Below, piece after piece: positions 8,648-22,998 of a stretch of 35,271 nucleotides of DNA (position 1 is its first letter; each line of letters opens with the position of its first letter). Location: assembly GCA_001874005.1 (NCBI GenBank), contig MNYJ01000188.1, forward strand, positions 1-35,271. Direction: 5' to 3'. The stretch comes from Desulfobacteraceae bacterium CG2_30_51_40. GTDB taxonomy: Bacteria; Desulfobacterota; DSM-4660; Desulfatiglandales; Desulfatiglandaceae. A program made the translations under genes and the position numbers. The notes below the pieces were generated by a model. That model was not told the DNA's origin, made no database searches, and was given only the letters and a program-made list of their open reading frames with translations.

Positions 8648-8698
8648 TTTGTCCTCCTCGTGGGATACTCATATCTCTTTCTCAGGTGCCGACCCGTT

Positions 8699-8779
8699 AC
8701 CCCTCCCCCTCGACGGGGGAGGGAGGGGTGGGGGTGATTTTCATCCTACGTTGTACCTGCCCGGGCATGAAAGTTAGTG
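8699..8779 (+). repeat. dispersed cassette repeat, copy A (G-rich core)
   Basis: This copy contains a CCCCTCCCCCTCGACGGGGG palindrome-like core running into GGGAGGGGTGGGGG, then ATTTTCAT (8737-8744). After that come GTTGTACC, a short spacer, GGGCATG and GTTAGTG. The left end ATGAAAAT seen in copies B and C is not recognisable here. It occupies the gap between the minus-strand thiolase and acyl-CoA dehydrogenase genes, and nothing else was seen in that gap. Confidence 0.8.
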
Positions 8780-10359: not shown

Positions 10360-10479
10360 TATTATTCTCCTCTGTAAGCTTTGTGATTATGTGCGAAATG
10401 ATACTTTCTGCCGCTAGTGCTGTCAAGATGTTATGGGTCCGGAAGACGGGATATTGACAAGCGGCTTTTTCAGGAGGTA

Positions 10480-10621
10480 GTGTCCATCCGTAAATGGCTA
10501 TTTTCACCGATCTCGGCGTTGGGCTCAAATTTTAATCCTCGAAATACCTCAATGTATTCCTGTGCTTAAAATCATCGCCCGCCTTGAACTCGACGAAACT
10601 ATCTCATTTACGGATGGACAC
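10480..10621 (+). mobile_element. MITE-like foldback element, full copy 1 (142 bp)
   Basis: The element begins GTGTCCATCCGTAAATG and ends with the reverse complement (CATTTACGGATGGACAC). It is flanked by a perfect 6 bp direct repeat, GAGGTA, at 10474-10479 and 10622-10627. The interior is itself an imperfect palindrome (CAAATTTTAATCCTCGAAATA against TATTCCTGTGCTTAAAATC), so the whole unit can fold into one long hairpin. It has no coding capacity. The reverse complement of 15745-15886 is almost identical and the same length. Confidence 0.9.
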
Positions 10622-10644
10622 GAGGTAGCATTCGGACGATTGTG

Positions 10645-10767
10645 TGGAAAAAAATGCCCGAATTCAAGGCCTGCGATATCCCGAGGAATGGGTCGTAATT
10701 GAAGATACTCCGCAGTGACGAGGGATGAGCGAAACACAGTAGATGGTCGTTTTTCAACTGCGGTTAA
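10645..10767 (+). repeat. third dispersed repeat family, copy a
   Basis: This unit starts around TGGAAAAAAATGCCCG, continues through GGCCTGCGATATCCC and CGCAGTGACGAGGGATGAGC, and ends with GTTTTTCAACTGCGGTTAA. The same order of blocks is seen at 15490-15618 and 22681-22830, and the end alone at 16300-16353. It lies directly downstream of MITE copy 1 and runs towards the gene at 10892. Boundaries are approximate. Confidence 0.75.
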
Positions 10768-10891
10768 GCGTTCTCGCCGGTGAGATGGAGTGTCCATGAG
10801 CGGGGCAGCAAAATATGCGTGCCATGAAGGTCCGGGAAATTGCAGGGAAGATTCGAGGGATGGCAGCAAATCTTATTGGGAGGCTTTGCCG

Positions 10892-11386
10892 ATGAAAATT
10901 GGAAAAAGTTGTGTGATTATAACCAGCCTTATGGCGTTGCTTTTGTGGCCATTGTTTCCCGCGCAGGCCCAGTGGTGGCAGGATAAGGGCCTCAAGGAAA
11001 AATATGCCATCTCTGAAACACAGGCTAAGGAGATGGATGTGGTCTATAACTCTTTTCAGGCCAAGAGAAAGGATCTGGCAAATGCATCGAGAAATCTCCA
11101 GAAGGACCTGACTGATCTTCTGGAGCAGGAGAAAGTCGAAAAAGAGGCCATAGAGAAAAGCGTGACGGCGCTTGAAGCGGTTAGGAACAGACTCTTTAGT
11201 GAGACGGTTGAGGCGCGGCTCGCTATCAGGAAGATACTTAGCGAGGATCAGATAAAGAGGATAAGGGCGGAGAATCCCAAGCTCCTTTCATCAGAAGGCT
11301 ACAGGCCGTTAAGACCTCTTCCCAAGATTGAGCCGAGACCCGGTGCCGGTCTGGTTCCACAGAAGACGGCGCCGAAGCAGAACTAG
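10892..11386 (+). CDS. periplasmic Spy/CpxP/ZraP-like protein
   Basis: Predicted small periplasmic helical protein of 164 residues, possibly a chaperone or metal-responsive factor. The start at 10892 is supported by GGGAGG ten bases upstream and gives a clean signal peptide (MKIGKSCVIITSLMALLLWP, cleavage after AQA). The mature region is almost entirely charged alpha-helix (about residues 35-135) and carries ILSEDQIKRIRAENP, similar to the LTxxQ-type motif of the CpxP/Spy and heavy-metal-resistance families. The C-terminus is a Pro-rich tail. It stands alone between repeats and the convergent purQ. The family assignment is by pattern only. Confidence 0.65.
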   Translation: MKIGKSCVIITSLMALLLWPLFPAQAQWWQDKGLKEKYAISETQAKEMDVVYNSFQAKRKDLANASRNLQKDLTDLLEQEKVEKEAIEKSVTALEAVRNRLFSETVEARLAIRKILSEDQIKRIRAENPKLLSSEGYRPLRPLPKIEPRPGAGLVPQKTAPKQN

Positions 11387-11442
11387 AACGATATGCATCT
11401 GAAAAAGGCCGGCAGTAAGATCCACGGCTCTACGCCCTGGAA

Positions 11443-12279
11443 TTAAAGATTTTCCCTCGCATAATCTACGGCATTTCTGAATATTCTTATGCCGTCCCCT
11501 TCTCCTGAAGGAGGCACTTTACCCTTTCTGCTGAGGCATTCTTTCTTTCTTGTCCAGTCCGGGTGATTGGTGAAATGATTATATGCCTCGGGATGAGGCA
11601 TGAGACCGAATAGGCGGCCCGTGGGATCACAGATTCCTGCAATGTCTCCAAGCGAGCCGTTCGGGTTTGCCGGCCAGGCGCCCTTTGCCTGTTTTCCCAT
11701 CCTGTCGGCATAGGTCAGGACTACCTGGTTGTCTGTTAAGAGCCTTCCGATCCGTTCGTCTTCCGCGAAGAATTTTCCCTCCCCGTGACGAACCGGGAGT
11801 TCGATGGTATCTATGCCTTGCGTGAAAATACATGGAGAGAGGTTATTGACCCTTAGATTCACCCATGTGTCTATAAAATTTCCGGAGTCGTTATAGGTCA
11901 GGGCCACAGTCCTTTCCCGGTATTTCATTCCGAAGGCCGGCACGAGCCCGAGATTGACCATCGCCTGAAATCCGTTACATATTCCTAAAACAAGCTTTCC
12001 TTCTGAAATAAAGCTTGAGAGTTCTTCCCCCAGATGGTGCCTGATCTTAGCGGCCATCAATACGCCCGCTCCGTGATCGTCTCCCCAACTGAACCCTCCT
12101 CCGAATACCAGAATCTGATATGGGTCAAGGCTGTTTTTCGGCTGCAAAGAGGCGGGCGAGATAATCTGATTTATATGAACCCTGTGGGAATCGGCCCCGG
12201 CAGTCTTGAGCGAGTAATCGGTTTCATAGTCGCAGTTAAGGCCGTAGCCTGTTAAGACAAGTGCCCTTACCTTTTTCAT
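11443..12279 (-). CDS. purQ: phosphoribosylformylglycinamidine synthase, glutaminase subunit PurQ
   Basis: Hydrolyses glutamine to supply ammonia for FGAM synthesis, the fourth step of de novo purine biosynthesis. This is a class I glutamine amidotransferase of 278 residues with nucleophile C101 in GICNGFQ and the H229/E231 dyad in MPHPEA. It is longer than the usual 220-230. The ATG at 12279 overlaps the purL stop (ATGA), and GGAGG lies upstream inside purL, so translation is coupled. The in-frame sequence further upstream is the purL tail and is not taken as the start. Confidence 0.94.
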   Translation of the reverse strand: MKKVRALVLTGYGLNCDYETDYSLKTAGADSHRVHINQIISPASLQPKNSLDPYQILVFGGGFSWGDDHGAGVLMAAKIRHHLGEELSSFISEGKLVLGICNGFQAMVNLGLVPAFGMKYRERTVALTYNDSGNFIDTWVNLRVNNLSPCIFTQGIDTIELPVRHGEGKFFAEDERIGRLLTDNQVVLTYADRMGKQAKGAWPANPNGSLGDIAGICDPTGRLFGLMPHPEAYNHFTNHPDWTRKKECLSRKGKVPPSGEGDGIRIFRNAVDYARENL

Positions 12280-15266
12280 ACAAGACCTCCGAAGGGGCCT
12301 TTCCAGCACTCCTTTAGGGCCATGACATCCTCTGACATGACTATCTCGTCCCCCCGGCGCAATTTAAAGCTTCCGGTGTTCACGCATCTCCCTATCAGGG
12401 CGGCAGGGGAGCCGGACATGGCAGTTTCAAAAGCCTCTTGGCCTTCCTCAGAAACTGTGATTATGAAGCGCCCCGCTGACTCGGAAAAAAGCCTCCTGCT
12501 GGTTGAAAGCCCCTTATCAGCCTGGATGGCCCCTAAATCCAGATCCATCCCTATTTCTCCCGCCATGGCTACCAGCGCCAGATGCACCGCCAGTCCTCCT
12601 CTTGAAACGGCGTGGCAGGAGGCCACAAGACCTTTTTTCATTGCCGAACTCAAGAGTTGATAGGATTGAAAAGACCTCTTTGCGTCAACCGCCGGCACGT
12701 TTGCGCCTGTATAGCCCAACATCTGATAGTATTCACTTCCCCCGAGTTCATCGCGCGTCTTTCCAAGGAGATAGACGAGGTCTCCTGCGCACTTTGCGTC
12801 CATGGAGACGCATCCAGCAATATCTTCAATGACGCTGCAGACTGTAAATAGAAGTGTGGGTAGCCCCGAGACCCTCCTTCTCTCCCCGTAAGGGCCGGCG
12901 AGATTGCCGTCAATATACATGCTGTCTTTGCCTGAGAGAAGCGGAATACCGTATGCCAGGCAGTAGTCTCTGAGCGCCCAGTTAGCTCTTACAAGCTGAG
13001 CGGCCTTATATTTGCCATCAGGATTAAGCCGTTCATCAAACTGGATGGTGGGCCAGCAGAAATTATCAACCCCTCCGAGGTGTCGGGGATCGCCTCCCAC
13101 CGCAATGACCTTCCGCACGGCTTCATCAATCGCATTTGCAACCATGTTGTATGTATCTATTGCGGAGTAATGAGGGCAAAGCGCTTGGGACACGGCTATG
13201 CCCCTTAAGGATGAAAGGATGGGCCTCACGACTGCGGCATCCCCGGGGACGTCCCTGTTTTTTCCGACCAGGGGCTTTATTACGCTCCCTCCCTGCACCT
13301 CATGATCGTATTGCCTTGCTATCCAGTTCCTTGAGCAGATATTGGGCCTTGCGAGTAGAGTTCTGAGGATAGCCCCGTAACCGGTGGGCTCTGTTATCAC
13401 AGGCTCAGCTAATCCTCTTAATACAGGGGGAATCCATTCTGCATCGAATTCCCATTTAGGAAACTCAGACTCAAGAAAATCCATGCGCACATAGGCGCAG
13501 GTTTTGCCTTTATAGTCGAGACGGAGGTATCCTGAGTCATTAAATTCTCCGAGGACAGTGCTTTCAACCGCGTGTTTTCGGGAAAGCTCCATGAATCTCT
13601 CTATATTTTTAGGGCTTACCGCGAGGGTCATTCTCTCCTGAGATTCCGAAACCCAAATCTCCCACTGATCCAGCCCTTCGTATTTAAGGGGAACTCTGTC
13701 AAGATCCACCCTGCAGCCGTTACTGAAGCGCGCAGATTCTCCTATGGATGAGGAAAGCCCGCCCCCGCCGTTATCGGTTATAAATGAAAACAGGCCTTCA
13801 TCACGCGCCTCTATCAGAAAATCATGCATCTTTTTCTGGGTATAGGGATCACCTATCTGTACATGACCTGCGGGGGTATGTTCGCTGAAAGTCTCGGATG
13901 CTGCCGTCACGCCGTGAATGCCGTCCTTTCCAACCCTCCCCCCGCACATGATTATAAGATCGCCGGGTCTGGCGGCTTTTTCGTGGCTGGGCCTTCCGGT
14001 CACCCTTGCGGGCATTATTCCCATGGCGGTGACAAATACCAGACATTTGCCCAGGTAGCTTTCATCAAAAAGGAGCAGTCCGTAAGGCGTGGGTATTCCA
14101 CTTTTGTTTCCGCCGTCCCGTACCCCCTCTATTACTCCGTCCAGAAGGCGTCTGGGATGAAGATGCGGGCTGAGATCTCCGGCGTAGTTGCGCGGGCCGA
14201 CGCAGAAGCCGTACATACCGAGTATCAGCCTTGAACCCAGACCTGTCCCCATCGGGTCTCTGTAGATTCCCACTATGCCTGTAATGGCGCCTCCGTATGC
14301 CTCCATGTTGGAGGGGCTGTTATGAGTTTCGCCTGTTATGACGTAAAGGTGGTCATCGTCAAAACGTCCTACGCCGGCATTGTCCCAGAGCACGGAAACC
14401 ACCCAGTCCTTTTCCTTCTGGATGGCAAGGGTGGGAGCTTCAATACACGTCTTGAAGAGGTTGTCAACAGTAACGGCTTCACCTGTTGAGAGATCCCTGT
14501 ACCTGAAAAGACCTCTGAAGGTGTTGTGGTTGCAATGATCGCTCCTGGCCTGGGAGATGTATTCGATTTCCACATCGGTGGGAAGGTCAAGCCCCATCTT
14601 CTTTCTCTTTTCCCTTATGTCATCACGGAGAAAGTAATTCCTTATTACCGGGATATCTCTGGGATTGAGGGCCAGGTTTCTTTCTTTCGATATCTTTTCC
14701 AGGTCCTCATCGCTTTCAATCGGTATCTCGCTCACGGAAGGGCTCTTGGCAATGATAACCTTCGGGGTGATATGCCCTATTCCTATTAAAGGATCCCACT
14801 GCTCCTTTGAAATGACCTTCCATTGCTGAATGATTTCATTGGCCAGGAGATACTTTGCTATTGTCTCCACACATTCTTTTTGTATGTCACCCTTGACCTC
14901 GAAGAGCTTGGAGGTGAATATGGCCTCTTCTTCACGGAAGGTGATTCCCAGCAGGTCTTCCACGGCCTCCTGAGCCGTGCTTCCTGCCGTGTCCCTTACT
15001 CCCGGCCTGTAGCCGACCCGGATCAGCCAGTCAAAATCTTCTGCGAGGGGAGAATAAGAGGATTTCTCAGTCACCGGATTCGTGAAGAGATCATCTCTTA
15101 TTCTTTCAAGCTGGGGTTCGTCCAGTTGCGCCTCTATTGTAATGACCCTTATTACTCTTATCCTTTCAACTTCGTATCCGAAATACTCTTTGGCCTTCCT
15201 CTTTATGGAGTAGCCTTCGGCATCCAGAAGCTCTTTCTTCAGTCTTATTTCCAGTCTAACAGGCAT
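12276..15266 (-). CDS. purL: phosphoribosylformylglycinamidine synthase, PurS-PurL type (996 aa)
   Basis: Synthetase subunit converting FGAR to FGAM with ATP and PurQ-derived ammonia. The first 170 or so residues look like a duplicated PurS-type segment (VRLEIRLKKELLDAEGYSIK). The two-lobed AIR-synthase fold follows, with ARSDHCNHNTF and the ATP-contacting GETHNSPS (312-319). The glycine-rich ITDNGGGGLSSSIGESA lies in the first lobe and SRGGLAVHLALVAMAG in the second. The length is intermediate between small PurL (about 740) and the 1290-residue fused enzyme; the glutaminase is separate (purQ). ATG 15266 is preferred over the in-frame GTG at 15275 because GGTGGGAG lies just upstream of it. 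Confidence 0.94.
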   Translation of the reverse strand: MPVRLEIRLKKELLDAEGYSIKRKAKEYFGYEVERIRVIRVITIEAQLDEPQLERIRDDLFTNPVTEKSSYSPLAEDFDWLIRVGYRPGVRDTAGSTAQEAVEDLLGITFREEEAIFTSKLFEVKGDIQKECVETIAKYLLANEIIQQWKVISKEQWDPLIGIGHITPKVIIAKSPSVSEIPIESDEDLEKISKERNLALNPRDIPVIRNYFLRDDIREKRKKMGLDLPTDVEIEYISQARSDHCNHNTFRGLFRYRDLSTGEAVTVDNLFKTCIEAPTLAIQKEKDWVVSVLWDNAGVGRFDDDHLYVITGETHNSPSNMEAYGGAITGIVGIYRDPMGTGLGSRLILGMYGFCVGPRNYAGDLSPHLHPRRLLDGVIEGVRDGGNKSGIPTPYGLLLFDESYLGKCLVFVTAMGIMPARVTGRPSHEKAARPGDLIIMCGGRVGKDGIHGVTAASETFSEHTPAGHVQIGDPYTQKKMHDFLIEARDEGLFSFITDNGGGGLSSSIGESARFSNGCRVDLDRVPLKYEGLDQWEIWVSESQERMTLAVSPKNIERFMELSRKHAVESTVLGEFNDSGYLRLDYKGKTCAYVRMDFLESEFPKWEFDAEWIPPVLRGLAEPVITEPTGYGAILRTLLARPNICSRNWIARQYDHEVQGGSVIKPLVGKNRDVPGDAAVVRPILSSLRGIAVSQALCPHYSAIDTYNMVANAIDEAVRKVIAVGGDPRHLGGVDNFCWPTIQFDERLNPDGKYKAAQLVRANWALRDYCLAYGIPLLSGKDSMYIDGNLAGPYGERRRVSGLPTLLFTVCSVIEDIAGCVSMDAKCAGDLVYLLGKTRDELGGSEYYQMLGYTGANVPAVDAKRSFQSYQLLSSAMKKGLVASCHAVSRGGLAVHLALVAMAGEIGMDLDLGAIQADKGLSTSRRLFSESAGRFIITVSEEGQEAFETAMSGSPAALIGRCVNTGSFKLRRGDEIVMSEDVMALKECWKGPFGGLV

Positions 15267-15301
15267 ATCTCCCACCTTGGAGCAGTTATTACAATTTTTA
15301 T

Positions 15302-15368
15302 ATGAAAATGCCCGATCTTTTTATCCCTCACCCTCGACGGGGTAGGTAGTGGTGGGGGTGCTTTTCAT
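15302..15368 (+). repeat. dispersed cassette repeat, copy B (G-rich core, interrupted)
   Basis: The left end is ATGAAAAT (15302-15309), the core CCCTCACCCTCGACGGGG and GGTGGGGGTG, and the right end TTTTCAT (15362-15368). The expected downstream part (TTAGTTGTGCCCC, spacer, GGGCAT) resumes only at about 15435, because a half copy of the MITE-like element sits in between. The left end lies about 36 bp upstream of the purL start, so the purL promoter region overlaps it. Confidence 0.78.
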
Positions 15369-15373
15369 ACTTA

Positions 15374-15434
15374 GTGCCCATCCGTAAATGGCTATTTTCA
15401 CCGATTTTGGCGTTGGGCTCAAATTTTAATCCTC
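15374..15434 (+). mobile_element. half copy of the MITE-like element inside cassette B
   Basis: GTGCCCATCCGTAAATG and the following bases to TTTTAATCCTC match the first 61 bp of copy 1 (10480 onward) with few changes, then stop before the palindrome centre. The fragment is bordered by TTAG on both sides, and the surrounding cassette sequence continues after it. Confidence 0.8.
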
Positions 15435-15489
15435 TTAGTTGTGCCCCACCAGGGCATTACCTTTAGTAGCGCGGTGAAATAGCGGCTGA

Positions 15490-15618
15490 CGACCGGCTGA
15501 GAGAAAATACCCGGATGCAAGGCCAGCTAAATCCCGAAAATGGGCGTATAAGGGATAACGCCGCAACGGCGGGGGATGAGCTAAACGAAACAGACGGGCA
15601 TTTTTGACAGCCTGTTAA
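15490..15618 (+). repeat. third dispersed repeat family, copy b
   Basis: Shares the order GAGAAAATACCCGGATGCAA, GGCCAGCTAAATCCC, GGGATGAGC..AAACG and the closing CATTTTTGACAGCCTGTTAA with copies at 10645 and 22681. The 125 bp that follow, up to the second MITE copy, hold no recognisable feature. Confidence 0.7.
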
Positions 15619-15744
15619 TGCCTACTGTAAAGCAACAATCAGGGGGAGTCAATATCGCGGCCGAGCCTCTAACTTTCTTTGGGGGTCGAAAGCCGTGATT
15701 CGTCCCGGCAAACAAGTGACCTGAAATGAACGCTATGCTAACTA

Positions 15745-15886
15745 GTGTCCATCCGGAAATGAGATAGTTTCGTCGAGTTCAAGGCGGGCGATAATTTTAA
15801 CCACAGGAATACATTGACGTATTTCGAGGATTAAAATTTGAGCCCAACGCCGAAATCGGTGAAAATAGCCATTTCCGGATGGACAC
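15745..15886 (-). mobile_element. MITE-like foldback element, full copy 2 (142 bp)
   Basis: The ends GTGTCCATCCGGAAATG and CATTTCCGGATGGACAC are perfect inverted repeats. The flanks carry a perfect 6 bp duplication, TAACTA (15739-15744 and 15887-15892). The interior is the reverse complement of copy 1 with only scattered substitutions. Both terminal repeats have G where copy 1 has T at the same position, so the two ends have stayed matched to each other within each copy. Confidence 0.92.
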
Positions 15887-15907
15887 TAACTACACTTAGG
15901 AAGTGCC

Positions 15908-16169: not shown

Positions 16170-16267
16170 AATTGTTATAGCGGCGTAGGCAGCTATACAA
16201 TTTACCCCTTCGATGGGAGAAATGATTTTCATCCTTCGTTGTGCCCCAATAGGGCATGGGGGTTAGT
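16170..16267 (+). repeat. dispersed cassette repeat, copy D (CGGCGTAGGC-type core)
   Basis: The right part is well preserved: ATTTTCAT (16225-16232), GTTGTGCCCC, a short spacer, GGGCATG and GTTAGT. The core holds a small inverted repeat, AATTGTTATAGC (16170-16181) and GCTATACAATT (16192-16202), around GGCGTAGGC. This resembles the core of copy F near phoH rather than the G-rich core of copies A to C. Confidence 0.65.
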
Positions 16268-16269
16268 TG

Positions 16270-18216: not shown

Positions 18217-18233
18217 GTTCACTGGATTTTCAT

Positions 18234-18336
18234 ATGAAAATGCCTCTTCCCTTTACCCCTCCCCCTTGACGGGGGAGGGAAGGGTGGGGGTGATTTTCAT
18301 CTTTAGTTGTGCCACGTTCGGGCATGACCGTTAGTG
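18234..18336 (+). repeat. dispersed cassette repeat, copy C (G-rich core)
   Basis: The best-preserved copy: ATGAAAAT (18234-18241), core CCCCTCCCCCTTGACGGGGG followed by three further G-runs, ATTTTCAT (18293-18300), then GTTGTGCC, spacer, GGGCATG and GTTAGTG. It fills the gap between the ClpX-like gene and ahbC. Confidence 0.85.
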
Positions 18337-22851: not shown

Positions 22852-22998
22852 GTATCGGCTCAATAAAGTGGGGAGACTGTTTTCGCCGCGATATTTCTGG
22901 ATTCCGGCTTTCGCGGGAATAACAAATAGTCGGCTTGTTCGATCTTTCCGGCGAAAGCCGGAATCCAGTGGTTTTACCCCCAATTATTGAGCTGATAC
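22852..22998. repeat. nested palindromic repeat
   Basis: Outer arms are GTATCGGCTCAATAAAGTGG and on to 22873, pairing with 22977-22998 (ending ATTATTGAGCTGATAC). Inner arms are CTGGATTCCGGCTTTCGCGG (22897 on) and CCGGCGAAAGCCGGAATCCA (22948 on). The inner pair is the kind of GGATTCCGG..CCGGAATCC intergenic repeat found in many bacterial genomes. The structure ends 42 bp before the DsrE-like gene. Confidence 0.75.

Follow-up and report, generated by a model that had tools for sequence, protein, structure and literature searches.

A young TANNTA-targeting MITE family in a Desulfobacteraceae genome and a phylum-wide hairpin core with changing ends

The two complete elements in the window (the whole 35,271-nucleotide stretch analyzed here, which is a complete contig, C100, of the Desulfobacteraceae bacterium CG2_30_51_40 assembly; 3.44 Mb, 229 contigs, 97% complete) are members of a real, recently active, young and high-copy MITE family. 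We think it probable that this MITE inserts at TANNTA sites and depends for its movement on a DDE-type transposase acting in trans, that it is one lineage of a superfamily found throughout the phylum, and that one of its strands must fold for mobility.

The two 142-bp copies lie in opposite orientation with perfect flanking hexamers, exactly as the original prediction described them. That description left out a third copy, truncated to its right half, and the hairpin, which spans all 142 bp of the element and not its ends alone. The features are:

10474..10479: target-site duplication left of copy 1, GAGGTA (TACCTC on the element's strand)
10480..10621, minus strand (consensus orientation): MITE copy 1, 142 bp, of the older T-A subfamily, with terminal inverted repeats GTGTCCATCCGTAAATG
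10502..10598, minus strand: conserved hairpin core in copy 1 (covariance model R1, 97.4 bits)
10622..10627: target-site duplication right of copy 1, GAGGTA
15374..15434, minus strand: third MITE copy, truncated to the right half, which ends in GGATGGGCAC, with TAAGTA next to it
15739..15744: target-site duplication left of copy 2, TAACTA
15745..15886, plus strand: MITE copy 2, 142 bp, a member of the young G-C subfamily, whose genome consensus it matches at every base
15768..15864, plus strand (the better-folding strand): conserved hairpin core in copy 2 (covariance model R1, 106.7 bits on the plus strand versus 32.3 on the minus strand)
15887..15892: target-site duplication right of copy 2, TAACTA

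Copies 1 and 2 differ at six positions (12, 49, 57, 74, 110 and 131), the pair at element positions 12/131 being T-A in copy 1 and G-C in copy 2, and an inverted-repeat finder pairs 10475–10631 with 15735–15891 at 94%. A single strand of the element folds 9.5 standard deviations below shuffled sequences. At 142 bp the element is too short for a transposase gene, and no fitting transposase is present among the ten window proteins scanned or could be recognized in the list of open reading frames, in agreement with what had been predicted for the window.

Other repeats are also present in the window. In a second dispersed repeat (8670–8751, 15294–15375 and 18226–18307), ATTTTCATATGAAAATGCC precedes and GGGGGTGATTTTCAT follows a G+C-rich hairpin of the CCCTCCCCCTCGACGGGGGAGGG type, and similar sequence adjoins or sits within elements at other loci (L041 and L039). 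Three intergenic stretches beside the MITEs (10650–10768, 15296–15375 and 16224–16269) each match several places in the congener G001, so they probably represent further repeat families common to the genus. At 22897–22968 there is a 23-bp inverted repeat, CTGGATTCCGGCTTTCGCGGGAA, forming a REP-like hairpin.

Across this sulfate-reducer-type genome, the 41-nt left arm has 224 matches with three or fewer mismatches, a few of which may be counted twice because contigs overlap at their ends (e.g. C83 and C206), and the reversed control pattern has none. The element is exactly 142 bp long in 99 of the 101 copies read, and the terminal inverted repeats of the consensus are perfect over 17 bp. The proposal of a MITE-like family with 6-bp duplications, which was to be judged by the flanks of further copies, holds across the genome: 44 of the 59 copies lying more than 150 bp from a contig end have perfect 6-bp duplications versus 4.2% of mispaired flanks, and among the same 59 there are eight more with a one-mismatch duplication and one with 7 bp. 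Twenty different hexamers are duplicated, with the consensus TANNTA. Copies nearer to contig ends have matching duplications in only 13 of 36 cases, a low rate that we attribute to the assembly, as flanks are unreliable there. These positions account for 36 of the 95 copies with enough flanking sequence, and the MITE is probably a main cause of contig breaks in this assembly, a practical nuisance in its own right.

Fourteen of 99 copies are identical to the consensus, and the mean divergence is 1.5%. The earlier view that different duplications reflect independent insertions is supported, and one nested locus (L024), with a young copy inside an old one, provides an empty site: without the inner copy and one duplication, the sequence becomes a continuous 130-bp match to the consensus (84%). 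A search for an orthologous empty site in congener G001 did not find the window region, and only other repeats match there. No open reading frame is interrupted by any of the 38 copies with enough context (frames of at least 80 aa, from a simple ORF call rather than a gene finder), and copies are located between tandem (17), divergent (14) and convergent (5) genes. Half-elements, left-only or right-only, were considered as IS ends and rejected, being truncations, contig ends or insert-bearing copies. Two MITE derivatives, L039 (C24:27044) and L239 (C138:1174), carry related inserts close to the apical region of the core; in L039 the copy has GACCTA on both sides, so that a cargo-carrying copy has apparently moved.

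The T versus G difference between the window copies, also noted originally, is real and corresponds to the pair 12/131, which among 99 copies is G-C in 67, a mismatched G.A in 21, T-A in seven and something else in four. Changes from the subfamily's own consensus number 4.2–5.5 for T-A, 1.3–1.4 for G.A and 0.9–1.1 for G-C; T-A is the oldest subfamily and G-C the youngest, and T-A is also found at this pair in several relatives. The mismatched G.A subfamily was itself amplified without correction, so that T-A to G.A to G-C requires just two ordinary steps by way of an amplified mismatch. Of the two explanations first offered, separate subfamilies is therefore retained, whereas template-directed correction is unnecessary, G.A bridging T-A and G-C.

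Searches of relatives gave matches in 37 of 61 genomes (source genome included), several of them in the interior only and with different ends. Of 297 genomes sampled from the phylum, 59, representing 48 genera, contain the core according to the covariance model, and a pattern from the middle of the core gave at least 75 loci in MAGs titled Deltaproteobacteria, Desulfobacterales, Desulfobacteraceae or Proteobacteria, with Candidatus Desulfatibia vada among the core loci listed. At least four kinds of ends surround the core, with duplications of 4, 5 or 6 bp to match:

Kind A (the window's own kind): ends GTGYCCATCC; duplications of 6–7 bp, TANNTA-like
Kind B: ends GAGACCTTTG; 5-bp duplications in 14 of 29 (0.07 expected)
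Kind C: ends GAGCCAGTTTC; 4-bp duplications in 13 of 19 (0.44 expected)
Kind D: ends GTGCCYGAACG; duplications of 6–7 bp, TANNTA-like

More distant genomes contain further tips, such as GGGTGTCTTG, which has some 4-bp repeats. The elements are mostly 141–142 bp in total, with a core of roughly 96 nt and tips about 23 nt outside it on each side. Between kinds, the 48 terminal bases are 42–52% identical (68% for B and C); the 30 core bases to the left of the search pattern are 78–85% identical between kinds versus 84–88% within kinds, and although sampling of the common core relied in part on a pattern that fixes most of its middle, the regions compared lie outside that pattern. Ends resembling kind A (GTGYCCATCC) also bound elements with other interiors in relatives; those at L112, L114–L116, L119–L122 and L128–L138 are 75–435 bp long, their interiors are often composite hairpins, and several have TANNTA duplications. 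Two kind C elements in different genomes (L145 and L210) are left-truncated and both start at CAAGGTCAAGG with the right end intact, reflecting either chance or a preferred break. No match to the core was found in plasmid and phage records, and neither the core string nor the kind A ends appear in the open-access papers searched. A conserved, strand-specific core with alternative ends is not visible from a single window.

The fold of the core is reflected in covariation and in a preference for one strand. Across 97 distinct cores, pairing is seen in 97.6% of cells and 20 of the 31 pairs have changed on both sides, counts that lean towards the structure because the alignment was fitted to it; the covariation score is 0.234, whereas slid structures reach no more than 0.068 and shuffles 0.103. 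With RNA parameters, the same strand is more stable in every element (68 of 68 of the family's own, 26 of 26 in kind B, 15 of 15 in C, five of five in A, and four of four in D). Where the commonest pair in a column is Watson-Crick there are 62 G.T wobbles versus 22 A.C mismatches, and the bias has the same sign when the structure is optimized for the reverse strand. On a tree, 48 changes lead from Watson-Crick to G.T and 19 to A.C (p = 5e-4; the elements are related, so p-values here and below are not from independent events), and the internal branches have ten G.T versus three A.C intermediates.

These patterns bear on whether this is an ordinary MITE, i.e. a short deletion derivative of an IS that is moved in trans, in which the palindromic interior is a relic without a role and the covariation arises by quasipalindrome correction through template switching. 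The classical features are present, and the occurrence of GTGYCCATCC-type ends with other interiors indicates that such ends can do without the core. Nonetheless, palindrome correction brings back Watson-Crick pairs irrespective of strand and predicts no strand bias, as opposed to the 48 versus 19 seen, nor does it predict the stable asymmetric mismatches common to the source-genome copies (e.g. positions 18/125, 19/124 and 21/122) or the uncorrected amplification of the G.A subfamily. Nor would one expect a relic to retain the same core throughout a phylum in which its ends vary, and we regard this explanation as rather unlikely.

The resident copies of the source genome behave differently from the lineages. 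Their private changes include 15 to G.T and 16 to A.C, there are 0.63 changes per site in the core versus 0.58 in the ends, and paired and unpaired sites are changed about equally often. The ratio of structure-preserving to disruptive changes is 97:48 between lineages versus 15:49 within the genome (p = 6e-9), and the direct G.T/A.C contrast between lineages and resident copies gives only p = 0.04. The resident copies decay neutrally and the fold is kept only in the lineage of still-moving copies, suggesting a role in mobility rather than host benefit, and we infer that, among mobile elements, selection favours a single-stranded fold that serves in moving.

The same data argue against a reading that we consider improbable, in which the core is a functional host RNA (a small RNA, or an element for mRNA stability or termination) carried by different MITE ends and retained because the host profits from it. 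The covariation and strand bias are as in structured RNA, and more copies lie between divergent than convergent genes, but neutral decay of the residents is not expected of such an RNA, and copies between tandem genes face either way about equally often (eight versus nine). There are also about 200 copies in the one genome and no match by whole-element search in a congener that is 66% complete, and no Rfam family corresponds at the gathering score (Rfam 15, all of the window; the best match at the element is mir-75, with 19.1 bits versus a cut-off of 60).

An ORF-bearing element with these ends was not found in the source genome or its relatives, the MAGs being fragmented at repeats. In the source genome the end pattern with a non-MITE interior has 13 matches, a minority of which were read, and the sole repeated end (C83 and C206) corresponds to one locus, without a transposase; the same pattern in 46 genomes of the family recovers small elements with other interiors and ordinary genes. 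End pairs of kinds A to D at a spacing of 450–4000 bp, sought at 222 loci, yielded one chance pair, and a search for DDE_Tnp_1 in 41 genomes, with an inverted-repeat scan around 30 loci, yielded other IS only. There are two DDE_Tnp_1 matches in the source genome, and the one for which flanks were read lacks such ends. In genome G014 the elements are numerous but DDE_Tnp_1 has no match, so the driver may belong to another family, be lost, or be missing from fragmented assemblies. Kind B tips are identical to published IS5-family (ISNme1) ends over 10 bases, which suggests that kind B is driven by IS5-type DDE enzymes, whereas the window's kind A tips lack this resemblance; the window element itself would presumably be moved in trans.

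Mobilization of a folded single strand by a Y1 (HUH) transposase, as in REP/RAYT or IS200/IS605-like systems, would account for a strand-specific imperfect hairpin, as such hairpins are the substrate of these enzymes, and Y1_Tnp genes are present in 55 of the 61 relatives. They are, however, common both with and without the element, and the core is matched, weakly, at only one of 30 Y1_Tnp loci. Moreover, Y1 systems leave no duplication, in contrast to the clear 4-, 5- and 6-bp duplications here. Membership of the RAYT or IS200/IS605 groups was rejected on these two grounds, and a Y1 mechanism is very improbable.

In the DDE-type reading that we prefer, a non-coding MITE would insert into TANNTA and duplicate those 6 bp, with the transposase acting in trans on the element tips. 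The window family would be one lineage of an old superfamily with a common hairpin core that has spread through the phylum, its tips having diverged into 4-, 5- and 6-bp kinds, presumably by tracking different transposases. One element strand would have to fold as single-stranded nucleic acid for mobility, most likely as ssDNA exposed in replication (the lagging-strand template), thereby bringing both ends together for the transposase, or alternatively as a transcript. DDE transposases act on double strands, so known IS biochemistry provides no reason for a single-strand requirement.

MITEs are usually seen as short-lived leftovers of a single parent IS. In these elements it is the ends that vary more and the interior that is better preserved, and selection for folding of one strand appears to act only among those that move. 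It is possible, if somewhat doubtful, that the core is a transposase-independent scaffold, a strand-specific hairpin required for movement that is served by several DDE-type drivers through changing tips and persists by change of driver. This would imply a single-stranded step in transposition (ssDNA or RNA) that still leaves ordinary 4–6-bp target duplications. Two questions are thereby made testable: whether a bacterial DDE-type pathway involves a folded single strand, and whether a parasite of transposases can change its driver while keeping its body. A MITE family as such is a known kind of thing; to our knowledge, and relative to the open-access papers searched, the variant is new in its phylum-wide core with changing ends, in its duplications of three lengths, and in a strand-specific fold that is apparently under selection in moving elements alone.

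Several known systems share features with these elements. Correia elements, ERIC and RUP are likewise imperfect palindromes of 100–150 bp that are mostly intergenic and present in high copy, but their sequences and targets differ from those here, the target of Correia and RUP being TA, and in none of the three are we aware of a fixed core framed by a series of alternative ends. REP/RAYT elements and integron attC sites similarly use single-stranded, strand-specific hairpins in movement, a use that would apply here too, but they have no target duplications, whereas duplications are the rule here and no linked Y1 gene is seen. The IS5-family element ISNme1 has the ends GAGACCTTTGCAAAA (PMC4596501), the first 10 bases of which match the kind B tips of other genomes (GAGACCTTTGAAAAATG, 5-bp duplication). 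The window's kind A tips (GTGTCCATCC, TANNTA) differ from it, and no IS5-type transposase was found with either kind of end. Bacterial MITEs in general, such as Chunjie of Geobacter uraniireducens (PMC10969869) and BrickBuilt of Porphyromonas gingivalis (PMC4596501), each described for a single species, are also short, non-coding and intergenic, with terminal inverted repeats, target duplications and no internal transposase. In P. gingivalis, different interiors are served by the same ends (PMC4596501); unlike those MITEs, the elements here also combine one interior with different ends and duplication lengths, throughout a phylum and around a covarying, strand-specific core.
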